From Halomonas alkaliantarctica (GTDB lineage: Bacteria > Pseudomonadota > Gammaproteobacteria > Pseudomonadales > Halomonadaceae), in assembly GCF_029854215.1 (NCBI RefSeq), contig NZ_CP122961.1, positions 1,302,001 to 1,366,000 of the forward strand: DNA of 64,000 nucleotides, given 5' to 3'. Shown piece by piece: positions 37,041 through 60,490 of this stretch (positions within the stretch are counted from its first letter, which is position 1; every line of letters begins with the position of its first letter). Position numbers and translations under genes: made by a program. Below the pieces are notes generated by a model, which was given only the letters and a program-made list of their open reading frames with translations, was not told where the DNA came from and made no database searches.

Positions 37041-38306
37041 ATGTTCAGCCGCGATATGACAATTGCCGGATTCGATGATGTGCTGTTTGATGCCATGCAG
37101 AAAGAAGTGGAGCGCCAAGAAGCCCACATCGAACTGATCGCTTCCGAAAACTACGCCAGCCCCCGCGTACTCGAAGCCCAGGGCAGCCAGCTGACCAATA
37201 AATACGCCGAAGGCTACCCCGGTAAGCGCTACTACGGCGGCTGTGAGTTCGTCGATATCGCTGAAAACCTGGCCATTGATTACGCCAAAGAGCTGTTCGG
37301 CGCTACCTACGTAAACGTACAGCCGCACTCCGGCTCGCAGGCCAACAGCGCCGTGTTCCAAGCGCTCGTTAAGCCCGGCGATACCATTTTAGGCATGAGC
37401 CTGGATGCCGGTGGCCACCTGACCCACGGCGCCAAGCCGAGCTTTTCGGGCAAGCACTACAACGCCATTCAGTACGGCTTGGATGATCAAGAGCTGATCG
37501 ATTACGACCAAGTGGCCCAGCTTGCTCGCGAGCACAAGCCCAAAATGATCATTGCCGGTTTCTCAGCCTATTCACAAATTGTCGATTGGGCCAAGTTCCG
37601 CGAGATCGCTGACGAAGTAGGCGCTTACTTGCTGGTCGATATGGCCCACGTCTCTGGATTGGTAGCTGCAGGTGTTTATCCCAGCCCGCTGCCTCATGCC
37701 CACGTGGTCACCTCCACCACCCACAAAACCCTACGCGGCCCACGCAGTGGCGTGATTCTTTCTGCTGAAAACGACGCGGATATCGAGAAGAAGCTGCAGT
37801 CAGCGGTTTTCCCCGGCGGCCAGGGCGGCCCCTTGATGCACGTGATCGCAGCCAAAGCGGTGTGCTTCAAAGAAGCCATGTCGCCAGAGTTCAAAACCTA
37901 CCAGCAGCAGGTGGTTAAAAACGCCAAGGCAATGGCCAACGTGTTTATCGACCGTGGCTACGACATCGTCTCTGGCGGCACCGAGGACCACCTCTTCTTG
38001 CTTTCGCTGATCAAGCAGGGCGTAACGGGTAAAGATGCCGATGCCGCTTTGGGTCGTGCCCACATCACCGTGAACAAAAACGCCGTTCCTAACGACCCGC
38101 AAAGCCCGTTCGTAACTTCTGGCCTGCGTATTGGCACCCCTGCGGTGACCACGCGTGGTTTTGGTGAAGAAGAGTGTAGCCAGCTAGCTGGCTGGATCTG
38201 CGACATTCTCGATGTACTGGCCAAAGGCGAAGACACCAGCGCCATCGAAGCGAAGGTGCTGGATAAAGTGGCTGAGGTTTGTAAGCGTCTGCCGGTTTAT
38301 AAATAA
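37041..38306 (+). CDS. glyA: Serine hydroxymethyltransferase
   Basis: A 421-residue PLP enzyme interconverting serine and glycine with tetrahydrofolate. The PLP lysine lies in [15 protein letters not shown]. The sequence includes the conserved N-terminal [11 protein letters not shown], the [18 protein letters not shown] stretch and [11 protein letters not shown]. Length and order are standard. GAGG lies about 12 bases before the ATG. A hairpin terminator follows at 38360. Confidence 0.98.
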
Positions 38307-38394: not shown

Positions 38395-38444
38395 GTCCGT
38401 TATGGCTTCTGCAATGCGCAATGGGAACTTCCACTGACCGGGAG

Positions 38445-38912
38445 CGGTTTAAGAAGGTAAGAAGGGGAAGGGCGCGGCCCCAGCATTTTGGATCGGTGAG
38501 CTGTGCAAGCTGACCTTTGAATGGTCCTTCGTTGGCTTGCCCGGCATCGTCAACTTAGAAATATACCTCTTTTGATGCTTCATCCTGAACGCTATGTTGG
38601 CGCAATGTCTCCACGAGGTGAGTGGGGATGGTAGCAGGTTGGTCGCCAAAGGCCACTAGGCTCAATGCACCCCGCGTAGAACGAATTGGCCGCCAGTTGC
38701 TGACCACTTGGTCAAGCTCAATAAATAAGTAATGATGGAAAAGCGTTTCGGTGAGCCACACCAGCTTGCTTGCGACATTGCCAACACTGGGGGGAAACAT
38801 GATAGTGCTGGTTTCCCAACTGCCCCGCCGCGCGGAAAGACTCGCCCCCCTTACGCTGAATAAGTTACCATTGCGCGCACTCTGTGCTGGTTTGGCTATA
38901 GTAAAGGCTCAT
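38445..38912 (-). pseudogene. rfaH: Decayed rfaH-like (NusG paralogue) gene
   Basis: Read on the minus strand from an ATG at 38912 with AAGGAGTGAC before it. The first part ends QW followed by a stop where RfaH has WY, then continues LIQRKGGESFRAAGQLGNQHYHV. After a frameshift comes KLVWLTETLFHHYLFIELDQ, then RSTRGALSLVAFGDQPATIP. After a further stop comes the KOW-domain remnant NEGPFKGQLAQLTDP. The order is that of full RfaH (NGN domain then KOW domain), but at least two stops and a frameshift break it. RfaH recruits to ops sites and suppresses termination in long surface-polysaccharide operons; an ops site lies only 180 bases away. Confidence 0.88.
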
Positions 38913-39089
38913 GTCACTCCTTGCGGTAGGATGAGTTAACCCAGGAGGTTGTCTAAACTCAGAGTCAGCGTACATTGTAACAAAATCGTAGTGATCGAGT
39001 GCAGCAAATGACGTACTAGAGCGCGCCGTTGGCACACCAAATGCTGCTACATAAGGCTAGGGCAAGGGAAACGTCCGGAACAATCCCTG

Positions 39090-39101
39090 GGCGGTAGCGT
39101 G
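39090..39101 (+). promoter_or_regulatory. ops element (RfaH recruitment site)
   Basis: GGCGGTAGCGTG is an exact match to the E. coli ops consensus and reads in the direction of the polysaccharide genes. It lies between the decayed rfaH-like gene and the decayed permease, about 1.1 kb before the first intact polysaccharide gene. The rest of a JUMPStart sequence is not clearly preserved. Confidence 0.85.
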
Positions 39102-39142
39102 GCTGAATATTTTTTAGATGGCTAAGTTTGAAAACGGAGCCC

Positions 39143-39780
39143 ATGACTATCGAAGTCTCGGCGATAATTACTCTCTTGGTGATGGTTGTCACCTTAGCTG
39201 CACTTCGCGATAACCGGCATTGCCCTGATGCGATTTTAGGCTGCCTGCCTGGTCATCAGCCCCCTGCCAAGCGTGGAGTGATTACCTTTGCCACGCTTTA
39301 CGTGGTAGCGGTTGGGCTGTACGAAATCGGGGCGATTCAATGGCTGGCCCACCGCCTGTACGGTCAAACCACACGGCTAAGCCAAGCCCAGCCCCAGCTA
39401 CACGTGTAACTGCTTGCTGCCGGGCTTAGCGCCTTTATGAACACCACCACCAACGTAGTCGCCATGTTCATACCCGCAATACAGGAACGGGCTGTACGTT
39501 AAAACTTCCCCCGGGCAAGCTGCTACTGCCGTTGAGCTATGCGGTGATCATCGGTGGCACCTGCACGCTGATTGGCACCAGTACCAACTTGGTGTTGGAT
39601 GGCCTGCTATAAAACCGAGCGCTGCGTCAGCCTCTCGGTGTTTGCACTGGTTTGGGTAGGTGTGCATTTTAAGCCTTATGCGCGGACCTGACTAAGCACG
39701 AACGCTTAAGTATGGGGGTTCGATTCAACCGTGTTCGGTAGCGGAAGGCCAAGCTGATTTATACCCGTGCTTGACCCCCT
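39143..39780 (+). pseudogene. Decayed SLC13/DASS-type permease
   Basis: The first part (MTIEVSAIITLLVMVVTLAAL, then GVITFATLYVVAVGLYEIGAIQWLAHRLYG) matches the start of SLC13-type permeases, but with a deletion after DAILG. Past a stop at 39409, other frames give [20 protein letters not shown], which corresponds to the family's SAFLNNTPVVAMFIPV region. A later frame gives [19 protein letters not shown], the second conserved signature. At least two frameshifts and stops separate these. TrkA-C domains expected downstream are not seen. Confidence 0.85.
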
Positions 39781-40232
39781 GTGAATGGGATATCGCTGCC
39801 GCCCAGCCCGTGGTCACAGCCGCAGATGGAGAAGTCAACGCACTCCCCTGGAGCCACTAAGCTGTAATTAGCAGGAAAGCGTGCTCAACCCATATTTTAT
39901 TGTACTTGTACAGCGCGATAGCCGCTGGGAAGACGCGCTAAAAAAGCGATAGACCTTGTAAGAGCCAGACTTGACGGTCGATCAGACTATCTACATGCAT
40001 CCACCTACTGCAGCACTGGGCTTAGTGCTTGGTCACTAATCATCGTCATTAGTTATATTCATGATGCGATAAGTCTACAATTTTGCCGTGTTTGATCTGT
40101 AATGTATAAATTAAATACAATACAAAACATACGCATGCATAGAGATATAAGAATTCAGCTAAAACTTTGGTTTGACGTGATTTAAGCGATTATGTAAAGC
40201 ATTTATATATCTTGAGTTTAAAGGAAAAATAT
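39781..40232. other. Degenerate DNA and AT-rich leader of the polysaccharide locus
   Basis: No intact gene. Short protein-like stretches up to about 40050 suggest more decayed coding DNA. After about 40050 composition switches abruptly to AT-rich, marking the edge of the acquired polysaccharide cluster. A promoter probably lies in 40100-40200 (TTGACG at 40172 is a possible -35), but no good -10 partner is at standard spacing. Confidence 0.5.
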
Positions 40233-41543
40233 ATGAGTCATAAGAAAAAATTAATTAATCTTTTTGTTAACAAAAAAGCGCATATAGGTGTGGTAGGGCT
40301 AGGTTATGTTGGTTTGCCTTTAATGTTGCGATATAACGAGGTGGGCTTTAAGGTTGTTGGTATTGATATAGATGGGGAAAAAGTTGATGCATTAAGCTCT
40401 GGAGAGAGTTATATAGGCCACATATCTGAAGAAAAAATAAAAAAAGCTTGCGCTACAGGGTTTGAAGCTACAACAGATTTTAGTCGAGTTTCAGAGTTAG
40501 ATGCTATTATATTATGTGTGCCGACACCTCTTAATAAATACAGAGAACCAGATATTAGTTATGTCATTGATACCGTGGAAGCATTGTTGCCATATTTGAG
40601 AAAAGGTCAAGTTGTTTCGCTTGAGAGCACAACTTATCCTGGTACAACTGAAGAAGAATTACTACCAAGAATACAAGGGAAAGGGCTTGAAGTTGGTGAG
40701 GATATATTTCTTGTATATTCTCCTGAACGTGAGGACCCAGGTAATCCTGATTATGAAACACGGACTATCCCTAAAATAGTGGGTGGCCAGACTGTCAGTT
40801 GTAAGGAAGTTGGTGTTGCCCTATATGAGCAAGCAGTTGATAAGGTTGTGGCTCTAAGTTCAGCCAAAGCAGCAGAAATGACCAAGCTTTTAGAAAATAT
40901 ACATCGCGCAGTAAATATTGGCCTGGTAAATGAAATGAAGATTGTGGCTGATAAAATGGGCATTGATATTTTCGAAGTTGTAGATGCAGCTGCAACTAAA
41001 CCTTTTGGGTTTACTCCCTATTATCCAGGCCCAGGGTTGGGAGGGCATTGTATACCGATCGACCCTTTTTACTTGACTTGGAAAGCGCGGGAATATGACG
41101 TCCACACTCGTTTTATAGAGCTTTCAGGTGAAGTTAATCGTGCTATGCCATATTATGTGGTCGATAAGCTCGTTGGAGGAATGAATGATGTGGGTAAACC
41201 ATTAAAAGGTAGCCATATACTTGTGCTAGGAATTGCATACAAGAAAAATGTAGGAGACGTTCGTGAGTCTCCTTCGGTTGCAATTATGGAATTAATAAGA
41301 AATAAAAAAGCAAATGTCGCTTACTCTGATCCTTATTTTCCAGCTTTTCCTAAGATGAGAAATCATTTTTTTGACTTAACCAGTGATCCACTAACAAAGG
41401 AAAGTTTGAAAAAATTTGATGCAATAGTATTGGCTACAGATCATGATTCTTTTGATTTGAAGTTCTTGCAGGAAAACGCAAAATTAATTATTGATGCTAG
41501 AGGTAAATATAGAAATAACGAGCCAAATGTAATCAGGGCGTAG
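40233..41543 (+). CDS. UDP-N-acetylglucosamine 6-dehydrogenase-like (WbpA family)
   Basis: A 436-residue nucleotide-sugar dehydrogenase. It has an N-terminal [15 protein letters not shown]-binding motif, [27 protein letters not shown], and catalytic Cys in [16 protein letters not shown]. The match is to the WbpA/TviB-type enzymes that oxidise UDP-GlcNAc to UDP-GlcNAcA rather than to UDP-glucose dehydrogenase. The ATG at 40233 is preferred over an upstream TTG because AAAGGAAA precedes it. First intact gene of the polysaccharide operon. It gives an acidic sugar for the repeat unit. Confidence 0.88.
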
Positions 41544-41570: not shown

Positions 41571-42692
41571 ATGAAAATATTGCATATATGTTCTTATTAT
41601 GTCGGCTCTCTTGTTTATAAGAAGCTTTTCGAGAGTTTAGATTCAGAGGAGCGTGTAAGTAAACAGTATGTATGGGTGCCAGTGCGAAAACATCACCATG
41701 AAGGTAAAAACTTAAGTAGCAAAAAGAAAATTAAAATTATTTACGTTAAAAGTTTGGATAGGTTCACCCGGTTATCTTTTCTTTATAAACTGCTACGGCT
41801 GGTTTTAAGCTTTCACCGTGACCAAAAGCGGGCTGATATTCTTCAAGGATGTAATGTTATCCACGCTCATACTTTGTACTCAGATGGCTATCTAGCTTAC
41901 TGGTTGAGTCGTAAATACCAAATACCTTATGTACTGAGTATTCGCACTACGGATGTCAGTGTCTTTGAGCGCTTTCTTCCTCATTGGCGGTGGATGACTC
42001 GGCGAGTCATAGCTAATGCGCAATGTCTTATCTTCATTTCACCTGCACACAAGATAACGATTGAAGCAAAGTACGCAAACGATTTGCCCAAAACACTGCT
42101 AGTTACCAATGGCTTGGATGAATATTGGATTAGTAACGCCATCTGCAGTTCAGCTCCAGAGAGGTCGAAGGCACGGAGTGGTATTTATATTGGCGAAATC
42201 AACGCCAACAAAAATATTAAGCGCGCTATTCTAGCGTTCTTTAAAATAGCCGATGACAACGACGCGACATTTACAGTACTTGGAGGTGAATACTCAACGT
42301 TCTCTGCTATCTACGGTGAGATTCCCGAGGTGCTACGGTCTCGTGTTGATTTCATTTCCCGAACAGAGGACAAGCAGTGCATCAAAGAATTGTTGAGACA
42401 ACATCAAGTGTTAATCATGCCATCGTTCATGGAAACTTTTGGCCTCACCTACCTTGAGGCGATCAGCCAATGCGTACCTGTGGTATTTAGTCATGGACAG
42501 GGCATTGATGGGCTTTATCCTGAGGGAATGGTTGGGTTCTCTTGTGACCCGAGTCGGGAGGAAAGCATCGCTGATGCCATTCTTAATGTCTTTAAGCATT
42601 TCCCAGAAGGCCTAATCTTTGAGGGCAATAACCCAGTAGAAGATTATTCTTGGCAATCACGTGCGCAAATTTTAATGAAAAATGCATACTGA
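41571..42692 (+). CDS. Glycosyltransferase family 4-like
   Basis: A 373-residue GT-B glycosyltransferase. The N-terminal domain has HAHTLYSDGYLAYWLSRKYQIPYVLSIRTTD. The C-terminal domain has the nucleotide-binding EX7E region MPSFMETFGLTYLEAISQCVPVV. Cytoplasmic, probably at the membrane face. It transfers one sugar of the repeat unit; donor and acceptor are unknown. Confidence 0.88.
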   Translation: MKILHICSYYVGSLVYKKLFESLDSEERVSKQYVWVPVRKHHHEGKNLSSKKKIKIIYVKSLDRFTRLSFLYKLLRLVLSFHRDQKRADILQGCNVIHAHTLYSDGYLAYWLSRKYQIPYVLSIRTTDVSVFERFLPHWRWMTRRVIANAQCLIFISPAHKITIEAKYANDLPKTLLVTNGLDEYWISNAICSSAPERSKARSGIYIGEINANKNIKRAILAFFKIADDNDATFTVLGGEYSTFSAIYGEIPEVLRSRVDFISRTEDKQCIKELLRQHQVLIMPSFMETFGLTYLEAISQCVPVVFSHGQGIDGLYPEGMVGFSCDPSREESIADAILNVFKHFPEGLIFEGNNPVEDYSWQSRAQILMKNAY

Positions 42693-42693
42693 T

Positions 42694-43911
42694 ATGAAAG
42701 TTCTTTATTTACACCAATACTTTGCGACACCTGATAACTCTGGAGGGGTGCGCTCATATCAATTCGGGAAGCGCCTTGCTGAAGCTGGACACTCTGTTGA
42801 TCTCGTTACATCGACGGCGTTCTTTCCGGTAGCCCGAAACTCAAGATTTCAATTAGTTAGCCAGCATGACATCGACGGGATAAAAGTACATGCGATTCAT
42901 ATAGAGTATGTGAACCAGATGAGTTTTTTTCGGCGAATCGTTGCTTTTTTATTATTTATGATAGTTTCATCTGTATATGTAATGAAGTTGCGCAAGCATG
43001 ATCTTATTTATGCATCCAGCACACCGTTGACTATTGCTGTACCTGCACTGATCTATAAAGCGTTTAGGCGTGTCCCTATGGTTTTTGAAGTTAGAGACCT
43101 TTGGCCCGATATTCCAGTTGAACTGGGCATAATAAAATCAAAATTACTAATCAAAGTTCTTTATCGGTTTGAGCACTTTGTATACAAAGCCTCAAAAAAA
43201 ATTGTGGTTCTGTCTACAGGCATGCGCGACGAACTAATTAAAAAGGGGGTTAAAAATGAAAAAATCGTTGTGGTACCTAATGCCTGTGACATCAAGGAGT
43301 TTTCGAAGGAGGTAAGCTCAGATGTAGCTGAGCAGCTTTTCAGCCAGCACGGCCAAGTCAGGCTTTGCATCTATGCAGGGACATTCGGCTACGTCAACAA
43401 TCTGGACTATGTGCTGGATATTGCCGTACATCTAAAAGATCTAGGAAGAAATATTAAATTTATTTTGATTGGAGATGGACAGGAAAAGCCCCACCTTCAG
43501 CGCAGAGTACAGGATGAAGGGCTCGCTGAACAAGTTGTCCTTTTGCCCGCTATGAGCAAGGCCGAGTTGATTCCTTATCTGAAAGCTTCTGACGCCTGCC
43601 TATCAGTAGTAAGGGATATTCCCGCGCTTTACAATAACTCAGCAAATAAGTTTTTCGACGCATTGGCTGCCGGTAAACCCATCATCATTAACCACGGTGG
43701 TTGGCAAGCAGACGTGATCAGGGATAACGGGATTGGCCTGGTGCTATGCAGAAACCCAGAAAAGAGCGCCAGGAAGCTGATCGACTTCATGGATAGAATT
43801 CAAGAGATAGACACAGAATGTATATTAAATTTAGCTCACGAAAATTACTCAAGGGATAAGCTTTTTAGAAAACTATGTTGTGATGCTTTATACCCTGCAG
43901 TTCATTCATGA
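42694..43911 (+). CDS. Glycosyltransferase family 4 (WbuB-like)
   Basis: A 405-residue GT-B enzyme starting MKVLYLHQYFATPDNSGGVRSYQF, typical of WbuB-type O-antigen transferases. It has EVRDLWPDIPVELG, VVPNACDIKEF and a C-terminal NKFFDALAAGKPIIINHGGWQ. WbuB-like enzymes often add the second sugar to the lipid-linked primer. An ATG twelve bases earlier overlapping the previous gene is an alternative; neither has a clear ribosome site, so translational coupling is likely. Confidence 0.88.
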   Translation: MKVLYLHQYFATPDNSGGVRSYQFGKRLAEAGHSVDLVTSTAFFPVARNSRFQLVSQHDIDGIKVHAIHIEYVNQMSFFRRIVAFLLFMIVSSVYVMKLRKHDLIYASSTPLTIAVPALIYKAFRRVPMVFEVRDLWPDIPVELGIIKSKLLIKVLYRFEHFVYKASKKIVVLSTGMRDELIKKGVKNEKIVVVPNACDIKEFSKEVSSDVAEQLFSQHGQVRLCIYAGTFGYVNNLDYVLDIAVHLKDLGRNIKFILIGDGQEKPHLQRRVQDEGLAEQVVLLPAMSKAELIPYLKASDACLSVVRDIPALYNNSANKFFDALAAGKPIIINHGGWQADVIRDNGIGLVLCRNPEKSARKLIDFMDRIQEIDTECILNLAHENYSRDKLFRKLCCDALYPAVHS

Positions 43912-43997: not shown

Positions 43998-45155
43998 ATG
44001 CAAAAAATCACAGTGTTTACCAGTACGCGTGCAGAATATGGGCTGTTGTATTGGCTTATCAAGGAACTTCACGAAAGTGCAGATTTTGAATTACAATTAG
44101 TAGTAGCGGGAACACATCTTTCTCATGAGTATGGTTATACAGTCAATGATATTATTGCAGATGGTTTTACCCCAAATGAATGTATTTCAACGCTTATAGC
44201 TGATGACTCTCCTCAAGCTATTACACGCTCCTCAGCCATGTTGGCTATGGTCATGGGTGACTATTTTGCACGTGAAAACCCTGATTACATTATTGTGCTG
44301 GGTGATCGGATAGAGCTAATGGCTGTGTGTGAAGCGGCCGTGATAGCCAAGATTCCCATTGTTCATTTACACGGAGGTGAGATAACTGAAGGTGCTGTTG
44401 ATGAAAAAGTGCGCCATGCCATCAGTAAATTGGCAAGCCTCCACTTTACATCGACAGAAGCCTATCGTCGCCGTGTGATACAAATGGGCGAGAATCCAGA
44501 AAGAGTATATAACTGCGGTGCACTTGGGCTTGAGTCGATGGCTCGCCAGGACGCAGTCGAACGCAAACAAATGTCAGAAAGTGTTGGTATTAGTGTCGAT
44601 GAGAGATATTTCCTTATTGTCTACCATCCAGAGACTCACAAGAAGTCTGAAAATATTGATGCACTACTTCAAGCAATTGAAGACTTTCCAGATTATAAGA
44701 AATTGTTTATATACCCAAACTCGGACATGATGAGCCGAGATATTATTGAGGCCATTCAGGCGTTCGCAGCACATCATCCTCAGAATGTGTTACTCATCAA
44801 ATCATTGCAGCGTGATATATATCTATCTCTGATGAAACATTGCGAGTTGTATCTTGGAAACTCCTCGTCAGGAATCATCGAAATGCCTAGTTTCAAGAGA
44901 CCTATCATTAACATCGGTGATAGGCAGCGAGGGCGCATTCGCTCTATAGCAACACTGGACGTAGAACTTGATTACCATCAAATTTCGAATGCAATCAGTA
45001 CGGCTATGACAACTGAACATCAGGAAAGAGTTACGCATATCGACAACCCTTATCAAGGTAGTGCGCCATCAAGCTTTATAGCTGATGTGCTACGCAATGC
45101 TAATGAGAAAGTCGGTATTCAAAAGACATTCTTCGATTTGGACTTTAATCTATGA
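43998..45155 (+). CDS. UDP-sugar 2-epimerase, hydrolysing (NeuC/LegG type)
   Basis: A 385-residue enzyme with the hydrolysing NeuC pattern TSTRAEYGLLYWLIKEL, HLHGGEITEGAVDEKVRHAISKL and GNSSSGIIEMPSFKRPIINIGDRQRGR. It removes UDP and inverts C2, giving ManNAc from UDP-GlcNAc, or the 2,4-diacetamido-trideoxymannose from UDP-diacetylbacillosamine in LegG versions. Sequence alone does not settle the substrate. The presence of a diacetylbacillosamine pathway in the same locus favours the LegG role. The start overlaps neuB downstream in ATGA. Confidence 0.9.
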   Translation: MQKITVFTSTRAEYGLLYWLIKELHESADFELQLVVAGTHLSHEYGYTVNDIIADGFTPNECISTLIADDSPQAITRSSAMLAMVMGDYFARENPDYIIVLGDRIELMAVCEAAVIAKIPIVHLHGGEITEGAVDEKVRHAISKLASLHFTSTEAYRRRVIQMGENPERVYNCGALGLESMARQDAVERKQMSESVGISVDERYFLIVYHPETHKKSENIDALLQAIEDFPDYKKLFIYPNSDMMSRDIIEAIQAFAAHHPQNVLLIKSLQRDIYLSLMKHCELYLGNSSSGIIEMPSFKRPIINIGDRQRGRIRSIATLDVELDYHQISNAISTAMTTEHQERVTHIDNPYQGSAPSSFIADVLRNANEKVGIQKTFFDLDFNL

Positions 45156-46225
45156 GCACTTATGTTATTGCAGAAGTTGGTGTTAACCACAATGGCTCAG
45201 TAACACTCGCAAAAGATTTAATACGTGTGGCAAGCGAGTGTGGAGCTGATGCTGTTAAATTTCAAACATTTGTAACGGATAAACTAGTAACAAGTTACGC
45301 AAAAAAAGCAAGTTATCAAAACGAAAATGATGCTAGTTCATCTTCGCAAGCTGATATGCTCCGAAGGCTTGAACTAAAGTACGATGACTATGTGATAATA
45401 AAAAAAGAGTGTGATAAATATAATATAGATTTCATGACAACATGCTTCGATAGTGATTCGCTTGATTTTATTATTAAAACTGCTGCACCAAAAATCCTCA
45501 AAATTGGGTCTGGTGACCTCACTAATCTTCCATTTTTGATTGAGCATGCTCGAACAGGGGTTAGCATCATCATCTCTACTGGTATGGCCATGTTGTCTGA
45601 AGTAGAAGATGCTCTTGCAGCGTTGGCTTTCGGATACCAGTCAGAGCCAGGTACAACTCCAGAGAGTTATCGCTGGTTAAAATATAACTACTTTACCCCC
45701 GAGTCCATCGAGCAACTGAAAAATAAAGTTACTATCCTTCATTGTGTCACAGACTATCCAGCGCAAGCACAGGATTTAAACCTTAATGCCATCCGTCAGT
45801 TGCGAGAAGTTTATGGCTTAAATGTAGGCTATTCGGATCATTCGACAGGTATTGAAGCATGCTGTGCAGCCGTTGCCTTGGGAGCAACCTGTTTGGAAAA
45901 GCATATCACTTTAGATCAAAGCATGCCTGGGCCTGATCACGCGGCATCCTCTACGCCTGAAGAGTTTAGACATTTTATTGATGCTATTCGTAACCTTGAT
46001 AAAGCACTGCTTCCGAAAGTGAAGGCTCCATCCCCGCGCGAGCAGGCAAACCTTGAAGTAGCTCGCAAGTATCTCGTTGCTGCAAAAGAGATTGCTGAAG
46101 GGGAGTTGTTCACTTCAGATAATATTGATATCAAGCGTTCTGCAACTGGACTAATGCCAAATCAGTATTGGGATATACTTGGTCAGCCAGCGCGGAAAAC
46201 ATACAGCGAGGGGGAGAGCATCTGA
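45152..46225 (+). CDS. Nonulosonic acid synthase (NeuB/LegI type)
   Basis: A 357-residue NeuB-family enzyme condensing a hexosamine with phosphoenolpyruvate. The TIM-barrel domain starts IAEVGVNHNGSVTLAKDLI and contains DAVKFQTF, LKIGSGDLTNLPFL, STGMA, CVTDYPA, YSDHSTG and EKHITLD. A C-terminal SAF/antifreeze-like domain starts after about residue 285 (REQANLEVARKYLVAAKEIAEG). Product is Neu5Ac or a legionaminic-type sugar depending on NeuC's product. Coupled on both sides. Confidence 0.92.
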   Translation: MSTYVIAEVGVNHNGSVTLAKDLIRVASECGADAVKFQTFVTDKLVTSYAKKASYQNENDASSSSQADMLRRLELKYDDYVIIKKECDKYNIDFMTTCFDSDSLDFIIKTAAPKILKIGSGDLTNLPFLIEHARTGVSIIISTGMAMLSEVEDALAALAFGYQSEPGTTPESYRWLKYNYFTPESIEQLKNKVTILHCVTDYPAQAQDLNLNAIRQLREVYGLNVGYSDHSTGIEACCAAVALGATCLEKHITLDQSMPGPDHAASSTPEEFRHFIDAIRNLDKALLPKVKAPSPREQANLEVARKYLVAAKEIAEGELFTSDNIDIKRSATGLMPNQYWDILGQPARKTYSEGESI

Positions 46226-46929
46226 TGGCTGCTCCGCGCAAGCGTTATTTGGTAGTCATTCCTGCCCGTGGGGGGAGCAAACGACTCCCCGGCAAAAATT
46301 TGATGAAAATTGGTGACGATTCCTTGATTGGGTGCGCGATTTTATGTGCCAAGAATGCAAGCATTGTTGGTGATATCACTGTAAGCACCGACGATCAAAG
46401 CATAGCAACTGAGGCAATGCGCTATGGCCCATATGTACCTTTCATGAGGCCCAAGCAGCTAGCTACAGACGAAGCTAAAACGATAGATGTTGTCGACCAT
46501 GCAATTCAGTGGTTTGCCAGCAGGGGAAACCACTATGACGCTTTAATCGTTTTACAGCCTACATCACCATTACGAACGGCACAGGATCTTCGGCAAGCAG
46601 TTGAGCTGTTCGAGGAACGTGAGGCTGATGCTGTGGTATCAGTATGTAAACTTGAACACCCTCTTCAATGGTGTGCTGAGCTCGGACCAAATGGAAGCAT
46701 GGAAAAATTTGGGGAGAGTGATAATTCGCAGATGCGATCCCAAGAGCTAGCACATCATTACCGCCTTAATGGGGCTATATATATTTATGATATAAAGTCG
46801 TTAAGTACGTATGGAAAGTTCTATTTCAATAATAATACCTTTGCCTATGAAATGGATGAAGTGTCTTCTATAGATATCGATACTCACCATGATTACCTAA
46901 TGGCTGAATATTTTTATTCTATAAGATAG
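46225..46929 (+). CDS. CMP-nonulosonic acid cytidylyltransferase (NeuA/LegF type)
   Basis: A 234-residue nucleotidyltransferase with VVIPARGGSKRLPGKNL, VSTDDQSIA, LQPTSPLRTAQDL and the terminal DEVSSIDIDTHHDYLMAE metal site. It activates the NeuB product with CTP. The ATG overlaps the neuB stop (TGATG), with GGGGAGA upstream. No O-acetyltransferase is fused, unlike some NeuA proteins. Confidence 0.93.
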   Translation: MAAPRKRYLVVIPARGGSKRLPGKNLMKIGDDSLIGCAILCAKNASIVGDITVSTDDQSIATEAMRYGPYVPFMRPKQLATDEAKTIDVVDHAIQWFASRGNHYDALIVLQPTSPLRTAQDLRQAVELFEEREADAVVSVCKLEHPLQWCAELGPNGSMEKFGESDNSQMRSQELAHHYRLNGAIYIYDIKSLSTYGKFYFNNNTFAYEMDEVSSIDIDTHHDYLMAEYFYSIR

Positions 46930-46937
46930 AGGTTGCT

Positions 46938-47909
46938 ATGAAAAATGTATTACTAGTCGGTGCTGGAAACCTGGGGCGGCGACATTTACAGAGCATGAAA
47001 AATAGTGCTGAACCTTTCAATATTTTTGTAGTAGAACCATTTGAAGCAGCTAGAGAGCAGGCTGAGAAAATATTTCAAGAAACGAAAAGTGATGCCGTAG
47101 AAAAAGTTGTAAGCTTTCATAAAGCTATAGAAGAAATAGATAAAGAAATTGACATTGTAATCGATGCGACACCAGCAAGTGGGCGTTTAGATATACTTAA
47201 ACAGGTGTTGGCTCTAGGGGCGAAAGACCTAGTTCTGGAGAAAGTAGCTTTTAACTCTGTGCCTGATATTGAAAAAGCTAAAGTATTAATAGAGAAATAT
47301 AATGCGCGTGCCTGGGTAAATTGCCCTCGTCGTCTTAACCCATTTTATATTCAATTACGTGAGATATTTGAAAATTTAAAAATTGATCGCTTTGAAGTAG
47401 TGGGAGAAAACTTTGGCATGGCTTGTAATGCCATTCATTTTATTGACTTGTTTGCTTTCTTAGCAAAAAAAGCCAATTATCATATTTCTTTAGATAATAT
47501 TAGTGAGATATTGCCAAGTAAACGTCATGATTATATTGAGTTTTTTGGCGAAATCACAGGGACATTTGAATCTGGACCGGATTTTAAAATTGATTGTCAG
47601 CGGTCTACTAAAGAGGTGGGATTTAAGATAAGAATTGTTACACTTACTGATGAATACGTGATTGATGAGATAGCTGGAAATGTGGAAATTATAAAGACAG
47701 ACGGTAGTAAAGAGGTTAGCAGTTTCCGTCAGCCTTATCAGAGTGAGCTGACAGGGGGACTTATAGATGAAATCATTTCTAAACAAGCGTGTGGATTAAC
47801 TGAGTTTTACGAGTCGATGGCCTTACATAGTCCATTTATTAGTAATGCTTATGTATTATATGCTTCGAATATTGAAGAAAACTCTTTAAAGATGGTGCCT
47901 ATCACATGA
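46938..47909 (+). CDS. Gfo/Idh/MocA family oxidoreductase (first copy)
   Basis: A 323-residue NAD(P)-dependent oxidoreductase. The Rossmann start is VLLVGAGNLGRRHLQSM, and the family EK motif appears as LVLEKVAF. The typical C-terminal alpha/beta sheet domain follows. The conserved EKP becomes EKV, which is unusual. GAGG lies before the ATG. Such enzymes beside neuA genes may modify the nonulosonate or its precursor. The substrate is unknown. Confidence 0.82.
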   Translation: MKNVLLVGAGNLGRRHLQSMKNSAEPFNIFVVEPFEAAREQAEKIFQETKSDAVEKVVSFHKAIEEIDKEIDIVIDATPASGRLDILKQVLALGAKDLVLEKVAFNSVPDIEKAKVLIEKYNARAWVNCPRRLNPFYIQLREIFENLKIDRFEVVGENFGMACNAIHFIDLFAFLAKKANYHISLDNISEILPSKRHDYIEFFGEITGTFESGPDFKIDCQRSTKEVGFKIRIVTLTDEYVIDEIAGNVEIIKTDGSKEVSSFRQPYQSELTGGLIDEIISKQACGLTEFYESMALHSPFISNAYVLYASNIEENSLKMVPIT

Positions 47910-48865
47910 AAAATAACGTTTTGATCGTTGGCAGTGGAGCGATGGCTAAAGAATACGTAAAAGTTCTGCGTGCCATGAATACACCATTAACAGTAGTGGG
48001 ACGTAGCGTCAGTGGCGCGCGAGCGTTCGAAAAAGAGACCGAATTACCTGTTCTTACTGGGGGGCTAGAAGCTAATATTGCCCATCTTGATTTTTCAAGT
48101 TTTACGCACTGTATTGTCGCTACCAACGTAACGCAGCTGTTCTCGAATGTTTGCAGCCTGATAAAAGCTGGCGCTAAAAAGATTTTAGTTGAAAAACCTT
48201 TCGTACTAGACAATGAGCAATTGAACGCTGCATGTCGTCTGGCTAACGAAAACACTGCCGCTATATTCATTGCTTATAATCGCCGTTTCTTTAGTTCAGT
48301 GATTAAAGCTCGTGAAATTATCGATGAGGATGGTGGCCTGGAAATGGTAAAGTTCGATTTTACCGAGCGGAGTCATGTTATTGAAGGGTTAGACAAAGAT
48401 CCTCATGAGAAGGCTCATTGGTTATTAGCCAACTCTACGCATGTTATCGATCTGGCGTTTTATTTTACAGGTAATCCCGAGAAGCTAACTGCTTATCAAT
48501 CAGGTAGCTTGGACTGGCATCCTAGCGCGATGGTATTCACAGGTGCAGGCATCAGCACGGAAGGTATACTTTTTTCGTATGGTTCTGATTGGGGTTCAGC
48601 AGGACGATGGGGTCTGGAGTTATTTACGCCGCTTCGTAAATTACGCCTATGTCCCATGGAAAAGTTGTTGGAAACTCGCAAAGGTACAATTGATGAGTAT
48701 GAAATTGAGCTTGACGATGAATTAGAAAAATCATTTAAGCCAGGATTGTATCGGCAGACAGATAACTTCCTCCTAGGATTGACGGAAGGCCTTTGTTCAC
48801 TTGGGGAGTTAGAAGATAGCTTTAAGCATTACTGCGAAATAGCTGGATATAAAGAAAATGTTTAA
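47906..48865 (+). CDS. Gfo/Idh/MocA family oxidoreductase (second copy)
   Basis: A 319-residue oxidoreductase starting VLIVGSGAMAKEYVKVL with the canonical ILVEKPFVL motif and AYNRRFFSSV. The C-terminal domain includes WLLANSTHVIDLAFYFTG, where the His is the likely catalytic residue. It overlaps the first copy by four bases. The two differ considerably, so they probably act on successive or different substrates rather than being redundant. Confidence 0.85.
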   Translation: MKNNVLIVGSGAMAKEYVKVLRAMNTPLTVVGRSVSGARAFEKETELPVLTGGLEANIAHLDFSSFTHCIVATNVTQLFSNVCSLIKAGAKKILVEKPFVLDNEQLNAACRLANENTAAIFIAYNRRFFSSVIKAREIIDEDGGLEMVKFDFTERSHVIEGLDKDPHEKAHWLLANSTHVIDLAFYFTGNPEKLTAYQSGSLDWHPSAMVFTGAGISTEGILFSYGSDWGSAGRWGLELFTPLRKLRLCPMEKLLETRKGTIDEYEIELDDELEKSFKPGLYRQTDNFLLGLTEGLCSLGELEDSFKHYCEIAGYKENV

Positions 48866-49709
48866 CCTCCATAAAAGCAAGCTAGCTAATGTACTATTTT
48901 GCTTTGTGAAAACGGCACCTCTGCTTGTGCTGATAGGTATAATTTTTCGTTTTCTATTTATTGTGTTACAAGTTTCTTCTATCTGGTTTATTTTTGGTTG
49001 GGTAGGCGGCAATGTCAAACCAGTTGTCAAGGAAATGATAGGGCTTCCGGTAGAGTCCTATATTTATCCATGCATTGGCGCCTTAGGTTTTATATTATCT
49101 ACCCTATGCCTGCTTATTGGTAAAATGTGTTCTCTTAAAGCAACATGCCAATTTGAAAAAGTTATAGTGGAAAAAGTTGGTAATAATCAAGTTTTGATTA
49201 GCAAAGGTGATCTTAAAAATATAGTTAAATTATTAATATCAGTGATGGATGTGATGGTGCCATTAGCTTTGATCGTGACTGTCTCTGCTTTGTGGATACA
49301 TGTCACCCCTTATATGCTGATATTAATTTTTATAATGTTATGTGGAGGAGCGTGGTTGCTTAAAAAAGGTGTCGGCTTTTCCGCCAAACGTTATAAACCA
49401 ATAAATAGAACCGGAAAACTAGAAAGTTATGTTGGTAGTCAAGAACAGCAAGGGTTTTATAAGATGCTCCTTCTTCCTAATTATATAATGCTGGCTTTGA
49501 TGAGTATAATCGCAATACTGATAGTTACTAGCTTAATTGCAACTAAGCTTTACTTTGAATCTCATGGTGGCCAAATTGGATATATGGCTATATTGACAGG
49601 TGTTGCTTTTCTACAAATGCGCTCTTTTTCGAACATCGTTGTTAGAGCTGGAGCATACAATAAAAGTTTGTCTGCGATTTATAAAGCCTTTTTTACTAAA
49701 GGTACATAA
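48858..49709 (+). CDS. Membrane protein resembling an ABC exporter transmembrane half without ATPase
   Basis: A 283-residue protein with about six hydrophobic segments (near residues 18-45, 66-88, 123-145, 147-166, 207-230 and 236-254). The end (FLQMRSFSNIVVRAGAYNKSLSAIYKAFF) resembles the last helix of ABC-exporter membrane domains just before the ATPase, which is absent here. It is too short for a Wzx flippase. Function is unknown. It overlaps the preceding gene by eight bases and is co-transcribed. Transport of a lipid-linked intermediate is a guess. Confidence 0.6.
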   Translation: MFNLHKSKLANVLFCFVKTAPLLVLIGIIFRFLFIVLQVSSIWFIFGWVGGNVKPVVKEMIGLPVESYIYPCIGALGFILSTLCLLIGKMCSLKATCQFEKVIVEKVGNNQVLISKGDLKNIVKLLISVMDVMVPLALIVTVSALWIHVTPYMLILIFIMLCGGAWLLKKGVGFSAKRYKPINRTGKLESYVGSQEQQGFYKMLLLPNYIMLALMSIIAILIVTSLIATKLYFESHGGQIGYMAILTGVAFLQMRSFSNIVVRAGAYNKSLSAIYKAFFTKGT

Positions 49710-49710
49710 A

Positions 49711-50247
49711 ATGAGATTGTTATTTGTGCTTGGTTCACTAAGTGAAAGATCTGCTTCCCGGTTTTTAACTTTAAATCCGGATCTTGTTTATCATTTTTCG
49801 GATAAAAATATCTTTTCTTCACATGATCCAGTTTCGTATAAGTGCCTTCCAAGTCCACAATTGAATCCGAAAATAGAATCAGCTATTGTTGAGTCTTCTA
49901 TAGAAAGAAATATTAAAAATATAGCTAACCCAGGTGGTGATGCAGCCATAATGCGACGCGCGTTGCGTTTATCTGAACTTCGCATAGAAGCTAAATGCTA
50001 TCTTAATGCTATTAATTTTATAAAACAAAAAAAAACATCTGATGATATAAGTCATGATACTATCATATTTATATCACACTATCTCTTACCATCAGATGTG
50101 TTAATGCATGAAGAACTTAATGTTGAATGGCACCAAGTCACAAATACTCGTTTCCTCGGTTTGATCCCAGGCTTTAGATATCTTCTTTTTTTCATTAGAA
50201 CTATTAGTCCTATTAGGTTGTTAAAAAAAAGGAAAACTTTTAAATGA
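49711..50247 (+). CDS. Unknown protein in the polysaccharide locus (178 aa)
   Basis: Starts at the ATG at 49711 (MRLLFVLGSLSERSASRF) with AAAGG about nine bases before. The N-terminal strand-like start is similar to the beginning of GT-B or nucleotide-binding folds, but no signature follows. The C-terminus is hydrophobic and basic (YLLFFIRTISPIRLLKKRK). It overlaps the next gene by four bases. It could be a partner or a split part of the 414-residue protein that follows. Confidence 0.6.
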   Translation: MRLLFVLGSLSERSASRFLTLNPDLVYHFSDKNIFSSHDPVSYKCLPSPQLNPKIESAIVESSIERNIKNIANPGGDAAIMRRALRLSELRIEAKCYLNAINFIKQKKTSDDISHDTIIFISHYLLPSDVLMHEELNVEWHQVTNTRFLGLIPGFRYLLFFIRTISPIRLLKKRKTFK

Positions 50248-51488
50248 CATTCCTGAGCAGGCTTTTTAGTCATGTTTCGATCCAACAAAGCAAGTCTAAA
50301 AATATAGTCCCTGTGTTTCTTAATATAATAATGACTGATGTTAGGCCTGTAAGTGCTCAGCAAAAATTAAAAAGCTTTTACACCATTATTGATCGGTGTT
50401 TAAAAGATGGTCGTGAAGTTAATTTAGTAATTATTCTCGGTAAAAATGGGAATAAAAATGCAGTTGCAGCCTATGAAGGGTCTTTGAATCGCTATTTGAA
50501 AGAAGATGGGTTCAATATAGTGTTTGTCAAGCCAATAAGCTGGGTTTGTGATAGGTTGTTTATGTTTATGCTCATGGCTAAATATTTTACTAAGATTAAT
50601 GGGTCCTTTGCACAACGTTTTAATTTTGCATGTTTATCTTCAATTTCGCGTGTACGAATAAGTTTATACCAGAAAATATATAGTTTGTTGCCATGTAATA
50701 ATTGGTTAGGTCTTACAGGTGGTATCGAACTGCCGGCACTTCAATTTGAGCAACAAAAATTGACTAGAAGATGCATTGTCAATGCATTACAGTTTGGTCA
50801 GGCTTCCTATGATCAGCAACATTTTTCTGGATATGGTGCCGACAACCTGTTTGTTTATGATGTTTATAGTAAAAAAGTTTTTATGAGTTTGAATGTCAAT
50901 GTTGATAATATAATAGTTTCGGGTTCTCCCGAGTTTGAATATGACTCTAGCCTAATGTTAAATGAAAAACTCCTTGAGGAAAATAAACTTAGCATTATCT
51001 TTGTTGACCAACCTATACGTCAGCGTGGTGAGTATTCAGAAGAATATATAGGCTACTGTTATGATATGCTTAAAGTATTTAATAATGATCCAGAAATTAA
51101 TTTTAAAATAAAAAAGCATCCCCGCGGATCAGCATTTGAAGATAATATGTTAGATCATTTTACGATTGTAAAAGAGTGGGGTGAATCTCTTTCAAAAGCC
51201 CATGTTGTAATTGGTTTTTTTTCAAATCTTTGCGATTTTGCGTTGTGTTGTGGACGAATTACCTTTTACTTAGGAAGTAGATCCATTATGGGTGGGGTGA
51301 AATGCGATTGGATTGTTTCACAAGGTGGGTATGTGGTAAGTGAAATTGATTTCCTTTTTTACGAAATAGGACATCTAAAAAAACAAACACAAGAAATAGC
51401 AAAAAAAATAATAAGTAATGGAAGTGATCAAACGGTATCACCTTCAGATATAATTTATAAAAGAATGGTGGCCCATAGTGAAGCCTAA
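50244..51488 (+). CDS. Putative GT-B glycosyltransferase (capsule type), 414 aa
   Basis: A 414-residue protein. The C-terminal half has FKIKKHPRGSAFED, a K-x-HPR motif seen in capsule, polysialyl and Kdo-type transferases, then VVIGFFSNLCDFALCCG, which corresponds to the donor-binding region. The N-terminus lacks recognisable signatures. Given the CMP-nonulosonate genes upstream, it could be the transferase for that sugar. That is an inference from motif and context only. Confidence 0.65.
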   Translation: MTFLSRLFSHVSIQQSKSKNIVPVFLNIIMTDVRPVSAQQKLKSFYTIIDRCLKDGREVNLVIILGKNGNKNAVAAYEGSLNRYLKEDGFNIVFVKPISWVCDRLFMFMLMAKYFTKINGSFAQRFNFACLSSISRVRISLYQKIYSLLPCNNWLGLTGGIELPALQFEQQKLTRRCIVNALQFGQASYDQQHFSGYGADNLFVYDVYSKKVFMSLNVNVDNIIVSGSPEFEYDSSLMLNEKLLEENKLSIIFVDQPIRQRGEYSEEYIGYCYDMLKVFNNDPEINFKIKKHPRGSAFEDNMLDHFTIVKEWGESLSKAHVVIGFFSNLCDFALCCGRITFYLGSRSIMGGVKCDWIVSQGGYVVSEIDFLFYEIGHLKKQTQEIAKKIISNGSDQTVSPSDIIYKRMVAHSEA

Positions 51489-52857
51489 ACAAGCGCTTAA
51501 ATGGATTAAAGAATTTGAAATGAAACGTGATGGGCTAAATCATAATGTTGACGGGGTTGATTGTTGGCCAGTGATCAGAAATACAATCTTGTCTATTGTA
51601 CTGCCTAAATCTGGTCAAGGCGCTGGCGCAGGTTTTAATTTTAGCATTTATTCTATTATAAGTATTGCCAAGTCAATAAAAGACACTCTTTCAATTAAAA
51701 ATATAAATGTTTTTATTTTATCTGACCAGAAATTTTCTGAAACAGTATCTGGATCAATTTACTTAAAAGATGCACATGTAATTAGAGAAATGGAACAGCA
51801 TAATTCTAAAGTTCCAATCATAGCTCTTCAGAATATGTTGAAAGACAACAATATTGTTGGACGTGAATATTGCCGATCAATATTTATTGTTTTGTTGCTT
51901 GCGGCGGGAGTGTCAAAGTTTTCGGCAGTAATGCGTTATATTCCATCTATATCTACTTATGTTGAAGGTATTGCTAAAGAACTTTCAGACTCTCCTATGC
52001 TTAGAGAAAGTTCGATAAGCTATGCTGTTCTGAAAAAGCAACTATATCGAAATATTCTTTTTTGTTTGGTAGCAAAAAATATTTTCTCATTTATTTTGCG
52101 TAGAGCTAAACCAGAAAAAGCTTACGTTGTTTGCTATTATTCAGTACTAGGAATGGCGTTGACTGCTGCTTGTCGCCAACAGAATATTCCAATAACAGAT
52201 ATACAACATGGTGTAGCGGGTGGCAGTATGAGAGCGTATGCAAGTTGGAACAAAGTGCCAGAAAATGGGTATTCAACACTGCCGGATACTTTTTTTTGCT
52301 GGACCAAATACGATGCAAATGCCATAACTGCCTGGGCAAAAGGTACCCCACACCATAATGCTTTTGTAGTTGGTAGCTTGTGGCGTGATTATGTTATGTC
52401 TAACTGTCTGTTTATGACTTCAGAAAAACAGTGGTTAAAGTTCTTCAATGAAGTAAGTAGCTTTAATAAAAAAGTGTTGATTACGCTGCAGTCTAGTTCA
52501 TTACCAAATTTATTTTTTGAAGTAATAACTCAGAGCAGAAAAAATTATTGTTTTCTTATCAGATCGCATCCTGGCTTTCCTTTAAGAGCGGATGAGATCC
52601 ATAATAAATTAAAAAAAAATTATCCTAACGTTTTTTTTGAGGAGCCATCAAATATTCCTATACAAGTGCTTATGAAACATATTGATGTGCATCTTACGGA
52701 ATGGTCTGGTGCTGTTGTCGATGCGTATTTTGAAGGGGTTAAGTCAATTGTTGTTGCTGAAAGCGCACTAGATTATTTTGAATACTATATTAGTGAAGGT
52801 GATGTGCTTTATGCTTCAACACTAAGCGAAATACAAAACATTATAGAGCAATGCTAG
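51478..52857 (+). CDS. Putative GT-B glycosyltransferase with QHG motif, 459 aa
   Basis: A 459-residue protein starting at a GTG that overlaps the previous gene. The middle contains ITDIQHGVAGGSM followed by LPDTFFCW and AFVVGSLW, an order shared with a group of bacterial surface-sugar transferases with an E/D-x-QHG motif. The C-terminal half has CFLIRSHPGFPLRADE and LTEWSGAVVDAYFEGVKSIVV. It may use a CMP- or UDP-sugar. It is AT-rich, like its neighbours. Confidence 0.65.
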   Translation: MKPKQALKWIKEFEMKRDGLNHNVDGVDCWPVIRNTILSIVLPKSGQGAGAGFNFSIYSIISIAKSIKDTLSIKNINVFILSDQKFSETVSGSIYLKDAHVIREMEQHNSKVPIIALQNMLKDNNIVGREYCRSIFIVLLLAAGVSKFSAVMRYIPSISTYVEGIAKELSDSPMLRESSISYAVLKKQLYRNILFCLVAKNIFSFILRRAKPEKAYVVCYYSVLGMALTAACRQQNIPITDIQHGVAGGSMRAYASWNKVPENGYSTLPDTFFCWTKYDANAITAWAKGTPHHNAFVVGSLWRDYVMSNCLFMTSEKQWLKFFNEVSSFNKKVLITLQSSSLPNLFFEVITQSRKNYCFLIRSHPGFPLRADEIHNKLKKNYPNVFFEEPSNIPIQVLMKHIDVHLTEWSGAVVDAYFEGVKSIVVAESALDYFEYYISEGDVLYASTLSEIQNIIEQC

Positions 52858-52903
52858 TTATTCGTCTAAATCAGAAATTTTTTGTAAAAAATAAGGGTTA
52901 GCC

Positions 52904-55876: not shown

Positions 55877-56512
55877 ATGATTTTTCTATGGATACGGTAT
55901 TTTATAATGCGTCTCTTAGATATTTTAGTCTCTTTTTTTATTCTTATTCTCGGTCTTCCTATTTTTTTATTGCTTTTCTTTGTTGTATTGTTTGATCTTG
56001 GTTCTCCGGTTTTATTTACTCATAAGCGTCCCGGCTACAAAGGAAAACCGTTCACAGTATATAAATTCAGAACTATGCGTGAGCTGGAAGATGATGGGCT
56101 ATTGGGTGTTGGCGATGCCGAGCGTATGTCTCGGGTTGGACGCTTCTTGCGTAGTACCAGCCTTGATGAGTTGCCCCAATTATGGAATGTCCTTAAAGGT
56201 GAAATGAGCCTTGTTGGCCCTCGTCCTTTATTAATGGACTATTTGCCACTTTATAGCGAGCGGCAAATGCGCAGGCACGACGTAAAGCCGGGAATAACCG
56301 GATGGGCTCAGGTTAATGGCCGTAATAATTTGAGTTGGCAGACTAAATTTGAAATGGATGTATGGTACGTTGAAAATAGGACTTTTTGGCTAGATATAAA
56401 AATCCTATACCTAACGCTTATTAAAGTTTTTAAACGCGAAGGTGTTTCTTCTCAGGAACACGTCACATCAGTACGTTTCGAGGGAAATGACGAGTGGGAC
56501 AACAAAAAATAG
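55877..56512 (+). CDS. pglC: Initiating sugar transferase, PglC-like
   Basis: A 211-residue polyprenyl-phosphate phosphoglycosyltransferase of the small PglC type. One N-terminal membrane hairpin ([23 protein letters not shown]) precedes the catalytic domain with [29 protein letters not shown] and [13 protein letters not shown]. PglC of Campylobacter moves diacetylbacillosamine-1-phosphate to undecaprenyl phosphate, and this protein matches its pattern closely, including GVSSQEHVT near the end. It starts directly after the previous stop. Confidence 0.92.
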
Positions 56513-57117
56513 CAATTTTTGGGGCTAGCGGCCATGGCCGTGTAGTTGCTGATATTGCCGTTTGCACTGGCTGGAATGTGCACTTTTATGATGATGCTAT
56601 TCCAGAGAAAGAGATGACATTAGGGATGCCTTATGGTGGTAATTTCCAGAATCTTATTTCGAATGTTGACCAATATTCTGCGGCTTTCGTAGCGATTGGT
56701 AACAACAGGCTCCGTTTGTCTCTTCAACAGTCGCTGCTTGATGCTGGTTTTTACATACCAACGCTCGTTCATCCGTCTTCTACGATAAGCCGGTTTGCAA
56801 GCATTGAATCAGGTACCGTTGTGATGCCGGGGGCTGTAATCAATGCTGCAGCGCATGTCGGTTGCGCCTGTATCATCAATACAGGCGCAAGCATTGATCA
56901 TGACTGCTTGTTGGAGGATGGGGTTCATATCTCCCCTGGCGCACATTTGGCAGGTATCGTATCTGTAGGCAAATGTAGCTGGATAGGTATAGGGGCTTCT
57001 ATTCGCCAACAGGTGCGAATTGGAATTAATGTTACTGTGGCCGCTGGTGCCGTTGTTGTTAAAAATGTCGAGGATAACGCCACCGTTGCTGGTGTTCCCG
57101 CTGTTAAAATGAGGTAA
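56494..57117 (+). CDS. pglD: UDP-4-amino-sugar N-acetyltransferase, PglD-like
   Basis: A 207-residue acetyltransferase beginning with GTG and overlapping pglC by 19 bases. The N-terminal Rossmann-like part has IFGASGHGRVVADIA, and the left-handed beta-helix hexapeptide repeats follow from about residue 90 (SRFASIESGTVVMPGAVINAAAHVG). The catalytic His is in GASIDHDC. The enzyme acetylates the 4-amino group to give UDP-diacetylbacillosamine. The gene order C-D-E matches Pgl loci. Confidence 0.92.
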   Translation: MGQQKIAIFGASGHGRVVADIAVCTGWNVHFYDDAIPEKEMTLGMPYGGNFQNLISNVDQYSAAFVAIGNNRLRLSLQQSLLDAGFYIPTLVHPSSTISRFASIESGTVVMPGAVINAAAHVGCACIINTGASIDHDCLLEDGVHISPGAHLAGIVSVGKCSWIGIGASIRQQVRIGINVTVAAGAVVVKNVEDNATVAGVPAVKMR

Positions 57118-57126
57118 CTGTAGATT

Positions 57127-58302: not shown

Positions 58303-58450
58303 AAGTGGCAAAAGCGTAACCTATGGCTATGTTGATCAATATATAGTCTATGTTCACCGTTACTCTATAGGGATAGGTGTTCTTGAGGCATGCTTGCTAT
58401 TACAATCGCTACCATTTCTCATCGACGGTCCCTAATCGGAAGGATTCCGT

Positions 58451-60418: not shown

Positions 60419-60423
60419 TTGAA

Positions 60424-60458
60424 TAAGCGACTTCTCGCTTTGTTGGGAGTCGCTTTTC
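60424..60458 (+). terminator. Terminator after the PglF/WbpM-type gene
   Basis: AAGCGACT pairs with AGTCGCTT around a 16-base loop, followed by TTCATATT. It closes the main polysaccharide operon. Confidence 0.75.
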
Positions 60459-60490
60459 ATATTCTCCACTGACGATACTTGTGACGTCGT

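Follow-up and report, generated by a model that had tools for sequence, protein, structure and literature searches.

The closest described system is RfaH-ops control of the E. coli type. One source (PMC7593976) describes how RfaH acts on ops in trans, how rfaH is transferred horizontally, duplicated and still being lost, and that envelope genes often adjoin it. A second relevant element is JUMPstart, held in Rfam as RF01707, for which the main text of the underlying 2010 paper gives a conserved stem-loop (PMC2864571). Three JUMPstart elements are described within one sulfated-capsule locus of a marine Vibrio (PMC11641403). Among the matches listed for RfaH or JUMPstart in Halomonas, none treats the present system by its title or the start of its abstract.

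The window analysed is a stretch of 64,000 nucleotides (G000:C1:1302001-1366000) from a single-contig, 4.23-Mb genome rated 99.98% complete. The species, Halomonas alkaliantarctica, is a salt-loving marine bacterium, and named relatives of its border RfaH place it in Vreelandella, formerly Halomonas. The original prediction, which saw an exact ops site beside a broken rfaH-like gene where glyA meets a polysaccharide locus, is confirmed. The analysis places this border among 82 genomes of the genus and asks which RfaH the site now serves.

The glyA border and its broken rfaH gene

The 12-base ops, GGCGGTAGCGTG, is intact and, as predicted, directed into the locus (Table 1). It stands ahead of a long operon and forms the 3' end of a ~45-nt leader with the JUMPstart arrangement, a hairpin plus GGGCGGTAGCGTG before polysaccharide genes. 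The leader scores 17.0 bits against RF01707, under the gathering score of 35, and is therefore named JUMPstart-like. At its gathering threshold RF01707 matches neither the window nor any of 8 loci from relatives, and over 369 genomes of the class it matches in 2, neither above cut-off; all Rfam models at gathering thresholds find a tRNA alone in the window.

The rfaH pseudogene survives in two pieces on the minus strand. One (38975-38796) corresponds to residues 1-60 of the V. maris border RfaH at 73% identity, and the other (38770-38405) to residues 73-194 at 72%; they lie in different frames and each contains one in-frame stop. The longest open piece (38908-38558, minus strand) matches PF02357 at 33.5 bits (cut-off 22.2) and the RfaH model TIGR01955 at E 5e-16. 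Its 59 bits on the latter do not reach the full-length cut-off of 144.5, as expected for a fragment, a decayed relative and not a working member. The pseudogene thus has the NusG-type similarity expected of it. From its likely start codon at 38912 to ops is 178 bp, and the predicted distance of ~180 bases and the breakage by stops and a frameshift both hold. The gene is divergent from ops and convergent with glyA, an orientation that the original prediction did not mention.

Also absent from it were two pseudogenes, of a permease and a CysQ-like protein, which separate ops from the nearest intact gene of the locus. A segment of the permease remnant (39430-39609) matches CitMHS at E 1.5e-7. As a result ~1.1 kb free of intact genes now serves as leader between ops and 40212, where a plus-strand run of 18 ORFs, each 200 aa or longer, begins and extends to 61798. 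No ops within 3 mismatches was found from 39102 to 40211, no CysD, CysN or Wzz match before 40212, and no wzz match anywhere in the window. Two promoter-like sites lie directly before 40212 (40030-40059 and 40092-40121), and transcription of the operon may therefore begin past ops. The region holds five such sites vs 2.2 in shuffles, and the sole plus-strand site upstream of ops is ~280 bp away.

Table 1. Features of the glyA border and the polysaccharide locus (window positions)
Feature	Position	Strand	Evidence or remark
glyA (serine hydroxymethyltransferase), name presumed by recognition	37041..38306	+	left border; intact 421-aa ORF
Border-type rfaH pseudogene	38405..38975	-	two in-frame stops, one frameshift
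JUMPstart-like leader (ops preceded by two short helices that may cross)	39052..39104	+	conserved 44-nt core
Exact ops site	39090..39101	+	directed into polysaccharide locus
CitMHS-type permease remnant, former first gene behind ops1	39149..39664	+	residues 1-182 of 588-aa G005 protein, 51%
CysQ-like (inositol-phosphatase family) remnant	39655..39946	+	residues 172-271 of 275-aa G005 protein, three pieces, 57-73%
NDP-sugar dehydrogenase, first intact gene of polysaccharide run	40212..41543	+	TIGR03026 417 bits
Two glycosyltransferases	41571..43911	+	several family matches, all below cut-off
Nonulosonic-acid genes: NeuC-type epimerase, NeuB-type synthase, CMP-sugar synthetase	43998..46929	+	TIGR03568 439, TIGR03569 414, TIGR03584 171 bits (the last below its cut-off of 205.7)
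Two oxidoreductase-like proteins, ORFs without assignment, one Glyphos_transf protein	46938..55876	+	
Initiating sugar transferase, PglD-like acetyltransferase, DegT aminotransferase, Polysacc_synt_2 protein, O-antigen ligase/polymerase (Wzy_C)	55877..61798	+	PF02397, PF17836, PF01041, PF02719, PF04932

The leader in relatives and across the genus

An RfaH of the border type is intact in six members of the genus: V. arcis (G005), Halomonas sp. A40-4 (G017), V. maris (G024), V. subterranea (G073), G055 and G069; the named relatives with this type are these four and H. sulfidaeris. The locus thus probably once carried its own antiterminator, as had been proposed. In each of the six an exact ops (ops1) lies divergent from rfaH, at 150-189 bp upstream of the stretch that was aligned; another exact copy (ops2) follows further on. 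The 588-aa permease is intact behind ops1 in all except V. maris, with the CysQ-like gene next. In G055 CysD- and CysN-like genes come after it, and the module proteins match CitMHS/TrkA_C, Inositol_P (PF00459), PAPS_reduct and GTP_EFTU/APS_kinase in Pfam. The first gene behind ops2 is Wzz-like in 4/6 (G005, G017, G024, G073), the Pfam match for G017 being slightly below cut-off.

Remnants of the border rfaH were found, among the matches listed, in at least five genomes (G000, G008, G046, G028 and G074), and the part preserved differs from genome to genome. They were sought with a full-length query, which covered all 82 genomes, and at glyA borders. A 607-bp 3' part of glyA is matched in 81 of the 82 genomes, and the flanks of 30 of these were scanned by tblastn. 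The flank scan sought ops on the right side alone, the wrong side for the 10 loci whose glyA is on the minus strand; one of them, G008, was afterwards read on the correct side. The ops is exact in 11/11 genomes with a border rfaH or its remnant, and its conservation in relatives is thereby established. An RmlB-like gene comes behind the lone ops1 of G028, and in G046 the permease module is intact despite the decayed border rfaH.

The element is conserved beyond its surroundings. In the five decayed genomes its 44-nt core is on average 95% identical to that of V. maris, vs 73% for the upstream flank (-300 to -60) and 51% for the downstream flank (+30 to +140); with V. maris itself included, the six intact genomes give 94%, 81% and 58%. 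Thus, the upstream flank is more decayed where rfaH is dead and the element is not, while a low downstream value is general. The window element agrees with those of G008, G046, G028 and G074 at 42/44, 44/44, 41/44 and 37/44 positions, and the window's upstream columns agree with the same four genomes at 256-279/540, gaps taken as differences.

Some border contents are recorded as separate observations. The permease and CysQ-like genes, joined in G046 and G055 by CysD/CysN-like genes, lie between ops1 and ops2 in G005, G017, G046, G055, G069 and G073; their predicted functions suggest a sulfate/PAPS supply for a sulfated polysaccharide under RfaH control. G046 carries a duplicate of the glyA 3' end ~7 kb downstream (L155, 12268-12474) with the second ops behind it, perhaps a trace of sugar-operon exchange at this border.

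Across the genus, counting bare ops 12-mers was rejected as a measure, since many exact copies are located inside long ORFs. A leader model (R1) was built instead from 37 sites of 24 genomes and searched at E 0.01 with strict filters that may lose weak matches. The window leader scores 69 bits, which proves nothing since it belonged to the training set; it is the only one in its genome by this search. The element was found in 68 of the 82 genomes: 68/72 with RfaH and 0/10 without, three of the ten RfaH-less assemblies being 80-89% complete. When the 24 model genomes are left out the figures are 44/48 vs 0/10, some of the 44 being close kin of model genomes. Misses among RfaH genomes are G039, G044 and G063, whose RfaH is 49-52% identical to that of G000, and the 66%-complete G051; G019 and G062, with RfaH at 51-53%, do carry the element. 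Genomes with the second RfaH type alone also have it before sugar genes. The genes behind it are presumably rmlB-, wecB-, ugd- and wza-like, names given by recognition.

G039, G044 and G063 form a clade of divergent RfaH with G019 in the RfaH tree, in which three of the four lack the element at the sensitivity of the search; these three may use another leader form. Another recurrent intergenic ops context occurs in L231, L241, L244, L181, L200, L021, L193 and L205, from genomes with and without RfaH. In L247, L250-L252, L258, L259, L271 and L273, from other Halomonadaceae, CTACCGC or a close form lies upstream and, as judged by eye, could pair with GCGGTAG of ops.

The original prediction had called for a search of the whole genome for other ops sites and for an intact rfaH. 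Ten exact ops copies are present, vs 1 of the reversed control word. Six of the ten are repeated in tandem gene arrays (G000:C1:2989177-2994132 and 3512315-3514912; L018, L019), each directly behind a GC-rich hairpin. Array loci also include L176, L178, L182 and L194-L197, similar arrays occur in G017, G050, G069 and G077, and array-type sites precede RHS-type genes in G042. In Pfam, ten array-linked ORFs gave VasX_N below cut-off (E 0.0026, beside one array) and RHS-type matches, and nothing else. These arrays would possibly place secretion-linked effector/immunity genes under RfaH control.

Two RfaH copies and one retained site

The search for an intact rfaH was also productive. A 180-aa RfaH is encoded at G000:C1:1435502-1435999, ~94 kb from the window ops, adjoining a phosphoglucomutase-type gene (pgm). 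It scores 170.2 bits with TIGR01955, above the cut-off of 144.5, and 54.8 with the NusG model, below the cut-off of 135.7. A 54-aa border RfaH query at E 0.001 finds RfaH in 72 of the 82 genus genomes, with two matches in G000 alone.

The two copies follow a one-or-the-other pattern. All five decayed-border genomes, that of the window included, have a second RfaH match elsewhere, and none of the six with an intact border rfaH has any other. The second RfaH of G074 is in pieces; this assembly is 74% complete, and its glyA and second RfaH are frameshifted. A bare 6 vs 5 split has a probability of 1 in 462 if kinship is ignored, and the five decayed genomes are not independent, since G000, G008 and G046 form a clade (RfaH tree support 0.965). 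V. maris is the mirror image: pgm and the following gene are kept with no RfaH between them, which fits both loss and gain. The tree, made with FastTree, contained 70 RfaH proteins from relatives and the genome's own copy, 1 of 71 loci (G072) being left out. A relocation of the border copy to the distant place was considered and rejected: the six border-type proteins form one group (support 1.0), from which the genome's own copy, together with those of G008 and G046, is separate.

Equivalents of K10, R16, T72 and R73 are common to both RfaH types; R16 and T72 are presumably ops-side residues. In the distant RfaH the equivalents of the E. coli residues K10, R16, H20, T72 and R73 are all present, and a PDB alignment shows the same segments. 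As regards the fold switch of the C-terminal domain and autoinhibition, the equivalents of E48 and F130 are also present, and the I93 position is V. A DNA-binding role of K10 and R73 is described (PMC7593976). The four shared ops-side residues mean that the distant RfaH could plausibly read the old site. The H20 equivalent, Q in 5/6 border RfaHs and H in the intact copy of the window genome, counts against such a hand-over.

The preferred reading, with a probability of about 75%, is that control passed from the neighbouring to the distant RfaH, the local gene decaying and the site being retained. As the order of events we infer that rfaH stood at the ancestral border divergent from a JUMPstart/ops leader (ops1) heading the permease/CysQ-like module, after which, as in relatives, a second ops and the polysaccharide genes would have followed. 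With a second RfaH already in the genome or gained, the local rfaH would have become redundant and decayed. The permease and cysQ would have decayed too, ops2 and wzz being no longer found in the window, and ops1 would have persisted since its DNA is also recognised by the distant RfaH. At present, transcription would start at a promoter upstream of 39052 and RNA polymerase would pause at ops, where trans-encoded RfaH would bind the non-template ops hairpin, displace NusG and keep Rho away. With polarity thus relieved, transcription would cross the ~1.1-kb leader and the ~21-kb gene run. Since Rho could act over the ~1.1 kb lacking intact genes, RfaH may matter more here, not less.

The original prediction had left open whether an RfaH encoded elsewhere serves the ops or control was lost when the locus content was replaced. 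The former is favoured by the intact distant RfaH (170.2 bits) and by the tracking of RfaH by the element across the genus; from the latter, what stands is that locus content has also been partly lost or replaced. A relict would explain the border differently: the operon would have its own promoter near 40030-40121, RfaH control would be gone and the element would survive by recency. The promoter-like sites before 40212 fit this account, as do the decay of the permease and cysQ and the want of a nearby ops (within 3 mismatches, 39102-40211) or of a wzz match in the window. It is nonetheless unlikely, given that the element shares 42, 44, 41 and 37 of 44 positions with the other decayed genomes vs 256-279/540 upstream, and that a lone ops1 in G028 precedes an RmlB-like gene. 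A role without RfaH, for example pausing alone or with NusG, draws on the finding that ops-like sequences pause diverse RNA polymerases (PMC7593976). The full element is found in 0/10 RfaH-less genus genomes, none of the 20 exact 12-mers there is JUMPstart-like by eye, and the hairpin-ops array context occurs at just one of them (G030, L239); these results make such a role very improbable.

Two further doubts concern the observations themselves. By a hand estimate that assumes equal base use, a 64-kb window would contain the bare GGCGGTAGCGTG with a chance of ~0.01, odds at which context decides; the 12-mer is not rare, and several exact copies in the genus lie within long ORFs. Identical place, orientation and ~45-nt context in 11/11 genomes, and the same context ahead of sugar genes elsewhere in the genus, leave a chance match near an unrelated pseudogene hardly credible. 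It is just as hard to believe that sequencing errors created the pseudogene, or that recoding lets it be expressed, and hence that the local RfaH is still active. This is a general possibility for which no specific support was found, and against it stand two stops and a frameshift atop ~27% amino-acid divergence, a genome 99.98% complete and four relatives that retain mere fragments of the border rfaH.

A hand-over to the distant RfaH would make this border a natural experiment in which a dedicated antiterminator becomes dispensable and the site outlives the gene where a second copy exists. That the leader was not found where there is no RfaH supports ops as a docking site common to RfaH lineages. 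The genus also offers matched strains for RfaH redundancy outside enteric bacteria.

Possible crossing helices and comparison with known systems

The leader could form two crossing helices, P1 (GGGC with GYCC) and P2 (GGGA with UCCC), of which P2 is the stem held in Rfam's model; in the window these are GGGC/GUCC and GGGA/UCCC. Over the 37 genus sites 96.6% of cells in both helices are paired, a level reached by 0/500 shuffles, and for P1 alone 98.6% (0/500). Three P1 cells are changed on both sides, in one pair only, a count that 101/500 shuffles reach. A set of 16 enterobacterial sites (14 distinct rows), chosen for diversity from the 80 matches listed, has the same layout with other letters; annotated genes directly behind include wzx, galE and rfaQ. 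Both helices are paired there in 93.7% of cells (0/500 shuffles). P1 alone is only suggestive in Enterobacterales: 19, 73 and 55 of 500 shuffles reach its pairing, two-sided pairs and covariation, 68-70% of cells still pair when its partners are slid by 3 columns, and site L293 is without P1. Compared by eye, Vreelandella and Enterobacterales have different letters on both strands of P1 as well as of P2, for example CAGC/GCUG crossing CUGG/CCAG. Among 30 ops sites outside the genus, read by eye and excluded from the pair counts, 14 are JUMPstart-like, and P1 is possible in 12 of these and not in 2.

From these pairings, the JUMPstart pseudoknot itself is likely. The wider proposal is somewhat favoured on balance: the leader would be a conserved H-type pseudoknot directly before ops in Vreelandella and Enterobacterales, with differing stem letters, in which a nascent RNA knot acts with the ops DNA hairpin, and it would have been kept in the window despite the death of the neighbouring rfaH. 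Among the open-licence PubMed Central papers listed, none describes a JUMPstart pseudoknot by its title or abstract start. If the crossing helix is true, JUMPstart has an RNA role beyond the ops DNA hairpin.

RfaH, ops and JUMPstart form a known system, of which the window is a well-resolved case with some new aspects. The one-or-the-other rfaH pattern, the probable crossing helix absent from Rfam's model and the ops repeated in gene arrays look new. The locus resembles the E. coli-type RfaH-ops system in its exact 12-base ops, its TIGR01955 RfaH, its leader before a long polysaccharide run and the action of RfaH in trans, here predicted. It differs in that the neighbouring rfaH is now dead, ~1.1 kb of decayed genes separates ops from the first intact gene, and the six intact relatives have two ops per locus. 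With JUMPstart RF01707 it shares GGGCGGTAGCGTG immediately preceded by a short hairpin, ahead of polysaccharide genes; it departs from it in its score (17 bits vs gathering 35), its other stem letters and the putative crossing helix outside Rfam's model. In cis-encoded NusG paralogs (UpxY, TaA and the RfaH of Shewanella CL7) the antiterminator gene likewise sits with its target operon, as described in PMC7593976, whereas the rfaH of this border points away from the operon, lies at a classical ops and has decayed beside an intact distant copy.
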